From an uncultured Traorella sp. (GTDB taxonomy: Bacteria; Bacillota_I; Bacilli_A; Erysipelotrichales; Erysipelotrichaceae): DNA of 42,192 bases. The notes under the pieces are model-generated. The model saw only the letters and a program-made list of their open reading frames with translations, was not told the DNA's origin and searched no databases. Both the position numbers and the translations under genes were made by a program. This document shows, piece by piece, positions 5,714 to 10,104 of this stretch; positions within the stretch are counted from its first letter, which is position 1; each line of letters begins with the position of its first letter. The DNA is taken from contig CALUVS010000019.1 of NCBI GenBank assembly GCA_944324265.1, positions 1-42,192 on the forward strand. Direction: 5' to 3'.

Positions 5714-5743
5714 TAAAAAACTGTGAGATTTGTTCCCACAGTT
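5714..5743 (-). terminator. Terminator of the ABC exporter operon
   Basis: AACTGTG/CACAGTT (5719-5725 with 5737-5743) is followed by six T on the minus strand. The stem includes part of the exporter stop codon. Confidence 0.75.
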
Positions 5744-7580
5744 ATTGAATGAATGCTTTTTGTTTTTCCTGCAGTGCCTGTGAAGTAAATAATTCATAAT
5801 AAGCACCTTTTTTATTCATCAGTTCATGATGAGTTCCCATTTCTTTGATCTTTCCTTTATCCAGTACAATGATCTTATCGGCATCGACAATCGTGGATAA
5901 ACGGTGTGCCACGACAAAACTTGTGCGATTTTTCAATAACGTCTGAATAGCATTCTGAATGAGTTTTTCACTCTCGGTATCAATGGAAGAAGTAGCTTCA
6001 TCTAAGATCACAATGCTTGGATTGGCCAATAAGGCTCTGGCAAAGGAAATCAATTGCTTCTGTCCGGTGGATAAAAGATCTCCGCCTTCTCCTACCTGAC
6101 TGTCATAGCCCTTGTCCAAGCGCATGATAAATTCATGGGCATGAATCAGTTTAGCAACTTCTTCTACCTCACTGTCGCTGGCATCCGGACGTCCATAGCG
6201 AATATTTTCTTTGATTGTCCCGGAGAAAAGATTCGGTGTCTGCAAGACATAGCCCAAATGAGAATGCAGCCAGCCGACACTGCGTTCCTTATAATTGCGC
6301 CCGTCAATCCGAATTTCTCCTTTTTTGGGTTCATAGAATCGGCATAACAAATTGACAATCGTGCTCTTTCCGCTGCCGGTTTCGCCGACAAGGGCAATCA
6401 TTTCACCTTGCTTGACATGCAGATTAAAATCGATGAGCACCGGTTCTTTTTCATTGTAATAAAAATCAACATGATTGAAATCCACATCTCCCAATAAAGG
6501 TTCATAATTCTCTTTTTTCGGATTTAACAAAGTACCGTATTTTGCTTCAACTTCCGGTGTATCTTTGATTTCAACTTCTTCTTCAATCAAAGACAAAACA
6601 CGTTCTGCATTTGCCTGAGCCACTTGAATTTCACTAAGCACACGAGCAATCTGACGCAGCGGTTCAAAAAACAGATCTGCATAGTTGATAAACATAGACA
6701 AAGTACCAAACTGAATGGTTTCCAGCAATACTTCTTGTCCGCCGATTGTCAGAAGCATGGCAATAACTACTCCGCTCAATAAGAAAATCAATGGCTGAAA
6801 GGTTGCATTGAGCTGTACAGCTCTTAATGAATAGTGACGCATACTGGCTGTTTTCTGACTGAATTCCGTATAGCTTTGTTCTTCAATGCCCAAAGCCTTT
6901 GTCGTTTTAGCACCGTTGATGCTTTCAGAAAAGCCGGCAGTCACCAGTGAATTGGCTTTACGGGCCTGTCTTTGTGCCTGCAGGATCCTTCTTTGAAAAT
7001 ATACCGAAATCAAAAAGACAAGCGGTACAACAGCCAATACAGCGAAAGCCATCCGCCAATCAGTAGCCAGCATAACAGCCGTAATGCCGATAATCAGAAA
7101 AACACCCCAGATCAGATCCACAAAGCTCCAGGCCAATGTTTCGGCCACACGGGAAGCATCACTGCCGATACGGGCAACGACCCATCCATTCGCTGTTCGA
7201 TCAAAGTAAGGAAAAGAAAGCTGCTGAACACGGTCAAAACACATCTTACGTAAGGTTTCGCCGAAATCACTTTCAATTTTTCCGGCAAATTTGAAATAGA
7301 AAAACATAGACAGTGATTTCAAGATAATACAGATAATATAGACAATGGAAAAATTCAGCAAACTGGCACCGACGCCTTTATCAATGACAAAGGTATTGAT
7401 AGCTGTACGATTCAATAAGGGAAAAACTACATCTCCGGCTGCAATAAATATATTAAAAAGAACTAAGCCAATCACGGCTGTTTTATGCAGCCATAGAATC
7501 TTAAATAAACGCAGCCATAATGATTTATCTATTTTCTTACTGGTATATTCCTTTTCCTGCAAAATGCTTTCACTCACCAT
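5742..7580 (-). CDS. ABC exporter half-transporter, BmrD/YheH-like, consensus ATPase site
   Basis: An N-terminal six-helix exporter domain (about residues 25-320) is followed by a nucleotide-binding domain with Walker A GETGSGKST (399-407), Walker B IVILDE (catalytic Glu at about 528) and switch AHRLST. The signature is LSTGQ instead of LSGGQ. The neighbouring half-transporter has a normal LSGGQ but Asp for the catalytic Glu. The pair therefore fits the asymmetric heterodimeric exporters (BmrCD, LmrCD, TM287/288), with this subunit in the BmrD/TM288 role. Substrates are probably hydrophobic drugs or lipids, an inference from the family. I chose the ATG at 7580 because AAGGGGGTGA lies just upstream. 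The frame overlaps the partner gene by 11 bases, so the two are coupled. A further in-frame GTG is the next codon. Confidence 0.9.
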   Translation of the reverse strand: MVSESILQEKEYTSKKIDKSLWLRLFKILWLHKTAVIGLVLFNIFIAAGDVVFPLLNRTAINTFVIDKGVGASLLNFSIVYIICIILKSLSMFFYFKFAGKIESDFGETLRKMCFDRVQQLSFPYFDRTANGWVVARIGSDASRVAETLAWSFVDLIWGVFLIIGITAVMLATDWRMAFAVLAVVPLVFLISVYFQRRILQAQRQARKANSLVTAGFSESINGAKTTKALGIEEQSYTEFSQKTASMRHYSLRAVQLNATFQPLIFLLSGVVIAMLLTIGGQEVLLETIQFGTLSMFINYADLFFEPLRQIARVLSEIQVAQANAERVLSLIEEEVEIKDTPEVEAKYGTLLNPKKENYEPLLGDVDFNHVDFYYNEKEPVLIDFNLHVKQGEMIALVGETGSGKSTIVNLLCRFYEPKKGEIRIDGRNYKERSVGWLHSHLGYVLQTPNLFSGTIKENIRYGRPDASDSEVEEVAKLIHAHEFIMRLDKGYDSQVGEGGDLLSTGQKQLISFARALLANPSIVILDEATSSIDTESEKLIQNAIQTLLKNRTSFVVAHRLSTIVDADKIIVLDKGKIKEMGTHHELMNKKGAYYELFTSQALQEKQKAFIQ

Positions 7581-9354
7581 GCTCACCCCCTTCACTCTGA
7601 ATTTCATAAATTTGTTTATAAAAGCCCTCTTGATGAATTAAGTCTTCATGCTTGCCGCACTGCACAATTCGTCCCTGATCCAATACAATGATCTGATCGG
7701 CATTGCGTGCTGTATTGATTCGATGAGTGATCATCAAGGTGGTCACCGGATAATCCAATTCATTCAAGGCTTTTTGAATCTGTGCGTCCGTCTTGGAATC
7801 CAAGGCACTCAATGAATCATCAAAGACGACAATCGGACTCTTTAACATCAAGGAACGGGCAATGGCCATACGCTGCTTCTGACCGCCGGATAAAGTAACT
7901 CCTTTTTCTCCTACTTCCGTTTCATATCCTTTATCAAATTCTTGAATCACATGGTCAATGCTGGCTGTCTGTGCCACTCGCTTCACTTCTTCCAAACTGC
8001 TGTAAGAAGCTAAACGCAGATTATCGGCAATAGTCTTAGAATATAAGAATGGTTCTTGCAGAACTACCTGCACATTTTTTCTTAAGTAAGTTTTATTGAT
8101 TTCTTTCAGCTCTACTCCATCAATTTTGATAGAACCAGACTGATAATCATAAATACCGTTCAGCAGATGCACCAAAGAGCTCTTTCCGCTGCCGGTTTTG
8201 CCCATGATGGCGACCTTGGTATTCGGATAAATATGCAGACAGATATCATGCAAAGTAGCCACGGAACTGTCATGATAGGCAAAATCCACATGATCAAACA
8301 CAATATCGCCATGAATTTCAGGTTTGCATCCGCTTTCCAGATCTTCACATTTTTCATTCAATATTTCTTCAATTCGATGAATAGAAACACTGATTTTTCC
8401 CATATCAGCGACAATTCTTCCCAATTGGCGAATCGGCCAGATAATCATCGATTCATATGAAATAAAGACAGAGAATGTACCGACCGTAATTTCTCCCTGC
8501 AGTGCAAAGTAAATGCCTGCCATGATCAAAATAAAGATCTGCAGAGTACCGATTAAATCACTGACATTCCAATAAACTGCCAATACATGCACCACCTTAT
8601 GAATACCATTGCGGAATTCATGATTCGCAGCATCAAATTTCTTGATTTCATTGATTTCCTGATTGAATGCTTTAACGACTCGTGTCGCATTCAGATTTTC
8701 CTGCAGCACCGCCATCATCTTTGCCTCATCTTCATCACATTTGGTAAAGACTCGTTTACTTACTTTATAGAACACCGCCGTTGCAATGAAGGTCAATGGC
8801 GTCAGACACAAAGCAATCAATGTCAAGGTTATATTGCGGGAAAATAATATGATTGCTGCCAAGAAAATGATCAGCACAGAATAAAACAATTCTGAAATAG
8901 AACCGGATAAAAATCTTCTGATCATATCAATATCCGAGGTGCTTCGCTGAATCAGATCTCCGCTGTCTTTCATCTTGTGATAGCTGAACGGCAGCTTCTG
9001 CATGTGATCATAAACCTCATTGCGAAGATTTTCCGCAAATGTCTCTGCTAATATCCCGCAGTTTTTTGTTCTGAGATGTACTCCTATCCCTACCAATGAA
9101 TACACCGCCAATACCATCAAACCGCCGATCCATAAATTATTTCTGAGATATTCAACACCGCCAAGCAGCTGGACAATGTTTTCGGCCCATGCTTCTTCAA
9201 GCGGCAGTCCATGAATAATATTATCGACCATATAAGATACAATGAGCGGTGCACAAAGCATTCCTGTGACATACAATGCCACATTCATCAATATCGAAAA
9301 TACTTTTTTATCATATGGCTTGGCATATTTTCTGATAAATGCTAAATCTTTCAT
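7570..9354 (-). CDS. ABC exporter half-transporter, BmrC/YheI-like, degenerate ATPase site
   Basis: This 594-residue protein has an exporter membrane domain (about residues 15-310) and an ATPase domain with Walker A GKTGSGKSS (385-393), signature LSGGQ (488-492), Walker B IVVFDD and switch THRINT. The residue at the catalytic-base position is Asp (about 513), the hallmark of the degenerate-site subunit in heterodimeric exporters. Together with the LSTGQ signature in its partner, exactly one of the two composite ATP sites would be fully active. The gene is preceded by a ribosome binding site (AGGGGAGA) and by a leader peptide and terminator hairpin (9371-9509), so expression is probably controlled by transcription attenuation. 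B. subtilis bmrCD is likewise controlled through the bmrB leader. Confidence 0.92.
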   Translation of the reverse strand: MKDLAFIRKYAKPYDKKVFSILMNVALYVTGMLCAPLIVSYMVDNIIHGLPLEEAWAENIVQLLGGVEYLRNNLWIGGLMVLAVYSLVGIGVHLRTKNCGILAETFAENLRNEVYDHMQKLPFSYHKMKDSGDLIQRSTSDIDMIRRFLSGSISELFYSVLIIFLAAIILFSRNITLTLIALCLTPLTFIATAVFYKVSKRVFTKCDEDEAKMMAVLQENLNATRVVKAFNQEINEIKKFDAANHEFRNGIHKVVHVLAVYWNVSDLIGTLQIFILIMAGIYFALQGEITVGTFSVFISYESMIIWPIRQLGRIVADMGKISVSIHRIEEILNEKCEDLESGCKPEIHGDIVFDHVDFAYHDSSVATLHDICLHIYPNTKVAIMGKTGSGKSSLVHLLNGIYDYQSGSIKIDGVELKEINKTYLRKNVQVVLQEPFLYSKTIADNLRLASYSSLEEVKRVAQTASIDHVIQEFDKGYETEVGEKGVTLSGGQKQRMAIARSLMLKSPIVVFDDSLSALDSKTDAQIQKALNELDYPVTTLMITHRINTARNADQIIVLDQGRIVQCGKHEDLIHQEGFYKQIYEIQSEGGEHGE

Positions 9355-9370: not shown

Positions 9371-9396
9371 CAAAAAAATAGGCACCTAGTGCCTAT
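9371..9396 (-). terminator. Attenuator terminator before the exporter operon
   Basis: ATAGGCAC/GTGCCTAT with a three-base loop (9378-9396) is followed by seven T on the minus strand, 17 bases before the exporter start codon and after the leader ORF. Nine bases of the hairpin (GGCACTAGG) are repeated exactly inside the leader ORF at 9447-9455, which allows mutually exclusive pairing. Confidence 0.85.
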
Positions 9397-9431
9397 TGAT
9401 ATGCGTATACGTCAAAGTACAAACAGATATT

Positions 9432-9509
9432 TTATCTGCCTAACTTCCTAGTGCCACTAAGAATTTGAGTTTCAAATGTAAAAAAGTTCAATAATAACAT
9501 CTTTTTCAT
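9432..9509 (-). CDS. 25-residue leader peptide controlling the ABC exporter
   Basis: A short ORF with an excellent ribosome binding site (AAGGAGG about 8 bases upstream) begins with MKKMLLLNFFTF and ends LSGTRKLGR. It lies between a strong promoter (9545-9573) and a terminator (9371-9396) in front of the exporter genes. Codons 17-21 (CTT AGT GGC ACT AGG) can fold into a six-pair hairpin. The same GGCACTAGG recurs in the terminator, so UUAGUG in the leader could pair with CACUAG of the terminator and prevent its formation. A ribosome stalled by an antibiotic would change which pairing forms. The arrangement resembles bmrB-bmrCD, but the peptide itself is not one I recognise. Confidence 0.75.
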   Translation of the reverse strand: MKKMLLLNFFTFETQILSGTRKLGR

Positions 9510-9544
9510 TTTGAATCCTCCTTTCTTGTGACATCGCCTTTTTC

Positions 9545-9573
9545 ATTATAGACCGATTGTTTATTAATTGCAA
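9545..9573 (-). promoter_or_regulatory. Promoter of the leader-exporter operon
   Basis: TTGCAA (9573-9568), a 17-base spacer and TATAAT (9550-9545) on the minus strand. Transcription would start near 9538, giving a leader RNA of about 185 bases. Confidence 0.85.
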
Positions 9574-9576
9574 TAT

Positions 9577-10104
9577 TTATTCACAATGGTTTGAGCATTT
9601 CCTTGCCATTTCAATGCGTATTTCCTTATTTTCAATATCAGAATTTGAATAACACAATGTATCAAAGCCAATAATTTCAAAGCCCATCGCCTGATAAAAA
9701 GAAATGGCTTTTGTATTGCAGCTCTGTGTTTCCAATACAACTGCTCGGCAATTCTGCTGTGCTGCTTCCTGAAAGGCTATTTCCATGAGCTGTGATCCCA
9801 AATGATTCCTGCGGTATTCTTTCTGCACATAAAGATTGACAATACGCAGACGCTGATTCCATTCTTTGTTTATTTCAATAAAACCAATCATTTTCTCTTC
9901 TTCAAATACACCATATAATACTGGATCTTCATTCCAATCTTCCAAAAGATGAAAGTCAAAGCCCTTTTTCATCGGTACATCACATTTTTTCTTGATGAAG
10001 GTAAATTGATTTTCTTTTATTTCCAGATCATAGTATTCATCGGTTTCATAGCTGAATGGAACACTGATTCCTTTATAGGAAGAATCACATTTTCTGATTT
10101 CCAT
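9577..10104 (-). CDS. GNAT N-acetyltransferase, streptothricin-acetyltransferase-like
   Basis: A single GNAT domain of 175 residues. The acetyl-CoA loop reads RRNHLGSQLM, followed by LETQSCNTKAISFYQAMGF and then DTLCYSN. The LETQ-N-A-FY-GF-DT-YSN pattern is characteristic of the streptothricin acetyltransferases (SatA/YyaR, Sat-4), which inactivate streptothricin by acetylating its beta-lysine amine. The Glu/Lys-rich N-terminal half also fits. Whether this enzyme acts on streptothricin or another amine cannot be decided from sequence. The start codon overlaps the stop of the DUF1146 gene (TAATG). It lies upstream of the attenuator-controlled exporter but has its own transcript. Confidence 0.8.
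   Translation of the reverse strand: MEIRKCDSSYKGISVPFSYETDEYYDLEIKENQFTFIKKKCDVPMKKGFDFHLLEDWNEDPVLYGVFEEEKMIGFIEINKEWNQRLRIVNLYVQKEYRRNHLGSQLMEIAFQEAAQQNCRAVVLETQSCNTKAISFYQAMGFEIIGFDTLCYSNSDIENKEIRIEMARKCSNHCE

Follow-up and report, generated by a model that had tools for sequence, protein, structure and literature searches.

The bmrCD genes of Bacillus subtilis, which encode a heterodimeric ABC exporter, are induced by lincomycin, erythromycin and chloramphenicol, and translation of the leader ORF bmrB is required for the induction by lincomycin (PMC4191407). According to a review (PMC8079631, citing Dar et al. 2016), two conditional terminators of Listeria monocytogenes, Rli59-lmo1652 and Rli53-lmo0919, are reported to be relieved by ribosome-targeting antibiotics. 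In the leader of vmlR, another gene of B. subtilis, an antibiotic-stalled ribosome prevents formation of the anti-antiterminator (PMC9226507); in Streptococcus pneumoniae, an intrinsic terminator lies less than 50 nt from the ABC exporter pair patAB and is accompanied by a predicted antiterminator and anti-antiterminator (PMC4319486).

The window, by which the whole analysed stretch of 42,192 nt is meant, contains a comparable leader on the minus strand, the sole instance of this promoter, ORF and terminator arrangement in the scanned window. The sigma-70-type promoter (9545..9573; -35 TTGCAA, 17-nt spacer, -10 TATAAT) matches 10 of 12 consensus bases, and transcription is predicted to start near 9538. 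It is followed by segment 1, the putative anti-antiterminator strand (UGUCACAAGAA, 9523..9533), which ends one base before the Shine-Dalgarno sequence GGAGG (9517..9521, within AAAGGAGG) of a leader ORF of 25 codons and TAA (9432..9509) encoding MKKMLLLNFFTFETQILSGTRKLGR. Codons 16–20 of this ORF contain segment 2 (UUCUUAGUGGCA, 9452..9463), the core of which, CUUAGUG (9455-9461), is predicted to pair with segment 3. The intrinsic terminator (9377..9397), AATAGGCAC-TAG-GTGCCTATT followed by a T-run, begins 34 nt past the leader stop codon and has a 9-bp stem, a 3-nt loop and an energy of -11.1 kcal/mol; it consists of segment 3 (9397-9389), the loop UAG (9388-9386), segment 4 (9385-9377) and the U-tract, and one such terminator was found against 0.1 expected in shuffled sequences. 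The promoter, ribosome binding site, ORF and terminator noted in an earlier sequence-only reading of this DNA are confirmed at the coordinates given there.

The folding energy of the window leader RNA is 4.15 SD below that of its dinucleotide shuffles, and two further hairpins are predicted in this RNA. One, within the ORF, is UUCUUAGU-GGC-ACUAGGAA, and here the sequence-only reading was right about the existence of a leader-codon hairpin and wrong about its size, which is eight pairs (-6.0 kcal/mol) and not six. The other lies over the leader stop codon (9414..9447; AAGUUAGGCAGAUA-AAA-UAUCUGUUUG.UACUU, 15 pairs, about -10 kcal/mol) and is a possible pause hairpin, absent from the same place in the predicted folds of the relatives described below. 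The Rfam search revealed no family at the gathering score anywhere in the 42-kb window, and inspection of MKKMLLLNFFTFETQILSGTRKLGR found no basic-X-basic motif (Arg/Lys-X-Arg/Lys) of the kind associated with macrolide arrest (PMC8298421).

The exporter start (9354) is located 22 nt beyond the terminator stem. Subunit 1 (594 aa, 7570..9354, minus strand) has a degenerate Walker B motif, VVFDDS, in which Asp replaces the catalytic Glu; subunit 2 (621 aa, 5742..7607, minus strand), the ORF of which as listed overlaps that of subunit 1 by 38 nt, has the canonical Walker B motif VILDEA and a non-canonical signature motif, LSTGQ. These motifs indicate that the exporter is a heterodimer, as had been proposed, with one degenerate site, and the PDB matches of both subunits include ABCB-type exporters, among them TM_0288 and YheH (BmrD). 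Upstream of the leader, on the same strand, lies a GNAT acetyltransferase gene (9577-10104), which scores below every named NCBIfam cut-off and has RimI and the streptothricin acetyltransferase Sat4 as its best matches.

With bmrB-bmrCD this locus shares a leader ORF, a terminator and a heterodimeric ABC exporter (BmrB is translated, and translation of the window ORF is presumed); its putative antiterminator, weak in the window, and putative anti-antiterminator would correspond to the antiterminator and predicted anti-antiterminator of bmrB, and the analogy with bmrB drawn in the sequence-only reading is a fair one (PMC4191407). BmrB, however, has 53 codons and a terminator inside its coding sequence (PMC4191407), whereas the window ORF has 25 codons and a terminator after its stop; since leader length and terminator position differ, the window leader is not a homologue of BmrB. 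Rli59 and Rli53 can be likened to the window by their arrangement, with a short ORF and a conditional terminator before an ABC transporter gene, but the ORF of Rli53 has three codons, unlike the 25 of the window (PMC8079631). The vmlR leader has an intrinsic terminator, as the window does, and an antiterminator and an anti-antiterminator around the upstream ORF, to which the putative pairings of the window would correspond; it differs in its three-codon ORF, in an extra hairpin that hides the gene's own ribosome site, and in its downstream gene, which encodes an ABC-F protection factor rather than an exporter (PMC9226507). The patAB locus resembles the window in its terminator before an exporter pair and in the predicted elements named above, but PMC4319486 mentions no leader peptide. 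By analogy, then, the window leader appears to resemble bmrB-bmrCD, rli53/rli59 and vmlR in mechanism, and the locus is best read, with a probability of roughly 0.68, as a ribosome-sensing transcription attenuator controlling a heterodimeric multidrug-type ABC exporter.

A search with the 241-nt leader DNA in 196 genomes of the family found no clear homologue, only short A/T-rich or exporter-start matches, and relatives were therefore sought through the exporter in all 316 genomes of the order, 16 of which gave matches at E ≤ 1e-186. One scan of genome contigs revealed distant transporters only; among plasmids, the leader DNA had no match and the exporter matches were below 60% identity. One close orthologue (L038), cut off at the contig start, was excluded. 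All five remaining orthologues that are complete and at least 66% identical (L033–L037, 66–74%) carry a promoter, an ORF with a Shine-Dalgarno sequence and a terminator, and the leader-ORF attenuator that the sequence-only reading had proposed before the exporter gains support. The -35 TTGCA can be aligned in 6/6 leaders, each with a TAT-type -10 downstream, and the Shine-Dalgarno sequence reads AAAGGAGG or AGAGGAGG in all six. The ORFs of the relatives, which have 24–35 codons and strong Shine-Dalgarno sequences, are positional equivalents of the window ORF, and the terminator stems end 23–27 nt before the exporter. With only 22–27 nt between the stem and the exporter ATG across the set, exporter transcription from the leader promoter must read through the terminator. 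The window and these five loci span three genera, and the genes upstream of the leader differ among the orthologous loci; because the module is kept nonetheless, it belongs to the exporter, and comparison at the sequence level indicates that it is conserved. The leader peptides, in contrast, are nearly wholly different between loci, with little in common except an EV..H ending in L033–L035, and the six leaders are too diverged for reliable alignment within the ORF. A [Leu/Val]-Asn pair located 6–10 codons before segment 2 in L032–L036 (LLLN, NELN, MELN, VLLN and LVVN) may be due to chance.

A second, separate leader type was observed before more distant orthologues (48–50% identity), L044, L046, L047, L048 and L049, and also L045. 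In the first five of these, which represent five species of one genus, the leader starts with MIKLR..K, is located about 195–206 nt before the exporter start and overlaps the stop codon of the upstream gene (ATGA); L049 carries synonymous changes (ATC/ATT, TTG/TTA, GTA/GTT) with K-L-R kept. K-L-R, and R-T-K in L045, correspond to the basic-X-basic motif of macrolide arrest. In L044 and L046–L048 a terminator-like hairpin, GGTGT...ACACC with T5, overlaps the leader stop codon, and the main terminator, GGCAC..GTGCC, follows downstream; there may thus be two terminators in series.

Comparison of the six leaders, made by eye and then with RNAduplex, yielded a four-segment scheme with 1:2, 2:3 and 3:4 pairings, where segment 1 lies in the 5' UTR beside the Shine-Dalgarno sequence, segment 2 in the middle of the ORF, and segments 3 and 4 are the terminator arms. 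In the minimum free energy fold of the window, segment 1 pairs with UUCUU(A)GUGGCA; the 1:2 helix of L036 contains 16 continuous pairs, and L037 shows no 1:2 pairing (p 0.99, codon shuffles). The 2:3 pairing comprises about ten or more pairs in L033–L036 and seven in the window (CUUAGUG with CACUAGG). When the ORF of each leader was dinucleotide-shuffled 500 times for comparison, the 2:3 duplex energy was -21.6 in L033 (p 0.000), -21.6 in L034 (p 0.002), -16.8 in L035 (p 0.012), -15.9 in L036 (p 0.004), -13.0 in L037 (p 0.044) and -10.7 in the window (p 0.12). With tighter segments and energies summed over the six leaders, none of 1000 codon shuffles attained the 2:3 value and 1 of 1000 attained the 1:2 value; in 6/6 leaders the two pairings draw on overlapping parts of the ORF. 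The module, its conservation and the mutually exclusive pairings across the set are demonstrated computationally. The alternative pairing between ORF and terminator claimed in the sequence-only reading amounts to seven pairs in the window, and for the set as a whole such pairing goes far beyond chance; the window alone gives p = 0.12–0.16, or a joint p of 0.052 for 1:2 and 2:3. Since segments taken from different species often pair as strongly as those of a single leader, these data are evidence for complementarity and not for compensatory substitution, and the six leaders are not fully independent, because L033 and L034 are close.

The sequence-only reading was also correct that GGCACTAGG occurs both in the ORF (9455-9447) and in the terminator (9393-9385). 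A shared 9-mer is reached in 36/2000 codon shuffles and 3/2000 base shuffles of the ORF, and the repeat may follow from the near-palindromic segment 2; as a working element it was rejected, being present only in the window among the six leaders.

It is conceivable, at a probability well below that of the sensing attenuator, that the terminator acts as a fixed brake with low constitutive read-through and that the leader ORF is translated incidentally and plays no part in sensing. The weak antiterminator of the window and the pneumococcal patAB, where expression is set by terminator stability alone (PMC4319486), are consistent with such a brake, as are the distant homologues L039–L041 (53–58% identity), in which a terminator occupies the same place, some 25 nt ahead of the exporter, behind a larger gene and with no obvious short leader; there, too, the exporter would need terminator read-through. 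The retention of the Shine-Dalgarno sequence, the ORF and the ORF-terminator complementarity in six diverged leaders argues against it.

The ribosome-sensing attenuator would work as follows. RNA polymerase would start near 9538, and a ribosome would load onto the leader ORF; during free translation, the ribosome would mask segment 2, or segment 2 would fold back on segment 1. With segment 2 so occupied, segments 3 and 4 would form the terminator and transcription would end before the exporter. A ribosome held early in the ORF, within about its first third to half, would leave segment 2 free, so that it could pair with segment 3 while segment 4 was still untranscribed, and the polymerase would enter the exporter genes. 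We infer that the ORF is translated, that regulation is by ribosome occupancy, that the signal is an antibiotic and that the response is drug efflux, the pump probably being made only when ribosomes are hindered.

To model the ribosome position, a 32-nt mask was placed on every codon in turn and the transcripts, ending at the terminator loop, were folded; the model ignores kinetics, pausing, NusA and NusG. An antiterminator overlapping the ORF and the terminator was strong in L033–L036, weaker in L037 and weak in the window. It formed with the ribosome up to about codon 15 in L033, 15 in L034 and 9 in L035, mainly at codons 9–10 in L036, and up to codon 6 in L037; a mask over segment 2 abolished it, or in L033 reduced it. 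The truncated transcripts of L033–L035 also formed the antiterminator when no ribosome was present, so that the model gives no clear prediction for the untranslated state. No modelled ribosome position yielded a dominant antiterminator in the window, where, in the predicted folds, it loses out to segment 1 and to the hairpin within the ORF, UUCUUAGU-GGC-ACUAGGAA; the window antiterminator is weak and its exact form uncertain, and the switch there is either weaker or dependent on a detail missed by the model.

These comparative folds favour an early stall, and bear directly on the proposal of the sequence-only reading that ribosomes stall near the C-terminal GTRKLGR (codons 19–25). In that version of the attenuator, the ribosome would mask CACUAGG in the ORF and open the stop-codon hairpin, and CUUAGUG would pair with the CACUAGG of the terminator. 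Such a geometry is possible in the window, given its self-hairpin and its repeated CACUAGG, and in L033–L035 segment 2 can become available again when the ribosome is close to the stop codon, with the antiterminator re-forming. Nevertheless, a ribosome at the GTRKLGR codons sits on segment 2 or has only just moved beyond it, and the C-terminal stall lacks support because the antiterminator strand occupies codons 16–20, which a ribosome at codons 20–22 covers; in the strongly pairing relatives, a mask on the corresponding codons removes or weakens the antiterminator, and early positions leave it formed. With the window ribosome at codons 20–26 the folds show no antiterminator, and segment 2 is taken up by segment 1; moreover, neither GTRKLGR nor the direct repeat is conserved. 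The C-terminal stall thus seems improbable, slightly more so than the fixed brake, and the model suggests that an early stall fits better.

Two remaining explanations were rejected for lack of conservation. Amino-acid attenuation, in which Leu or Phe starvation would stall ribosomes at LLLNFF and switch the exporter on, accords with Leu5-7 and Phe9-10 of the window leader but is very unlikely, since L033, L034, L036 and L037 have no comparable Leu/Phe runs, bar FF in some C-terminal halves, and the operon product is an exporter and not a biosynthetic enzyme. Still less credible is the idea that the ABC pair exports the 25-aa product as a secreted peptide or toxin; this product is suitably short, partly hydrophobic and adjacent to the exporter, but the sequences are almost wholly different between orthologous loci where the RNA pairing is kept.

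A literature search combining Erysipelotrichaceae, leader peptides and ABC transporters found nothing pertinent, which is weak evidence of novelty; the type of switch is already known, and the ribosome-sensing attenuator would be a further example, in bacteria for which no published description was found. More tentatively, these loci could represent a family of antibiotic-sensing leaders, built of four segments and so far undescribed, within a single bacterial family; their peptides could drift freely because what is sensed is early ribosome occupancy rather than a specific arrest sequence, the same exporter family having acquired a second, separate Lys-X-Arg leader in another genus. If the attenuator reading is true, the antibiotic-sensing attenuators of ABC exporters would gain six leaders from three genera of a single bacterial family, the position of the ribosome stall would be corrected in a specific, testable way, the exporter would be marked as a likely drug-responsive pump, and RNA pairing could be seen to persist while the encoded peptide diverges.
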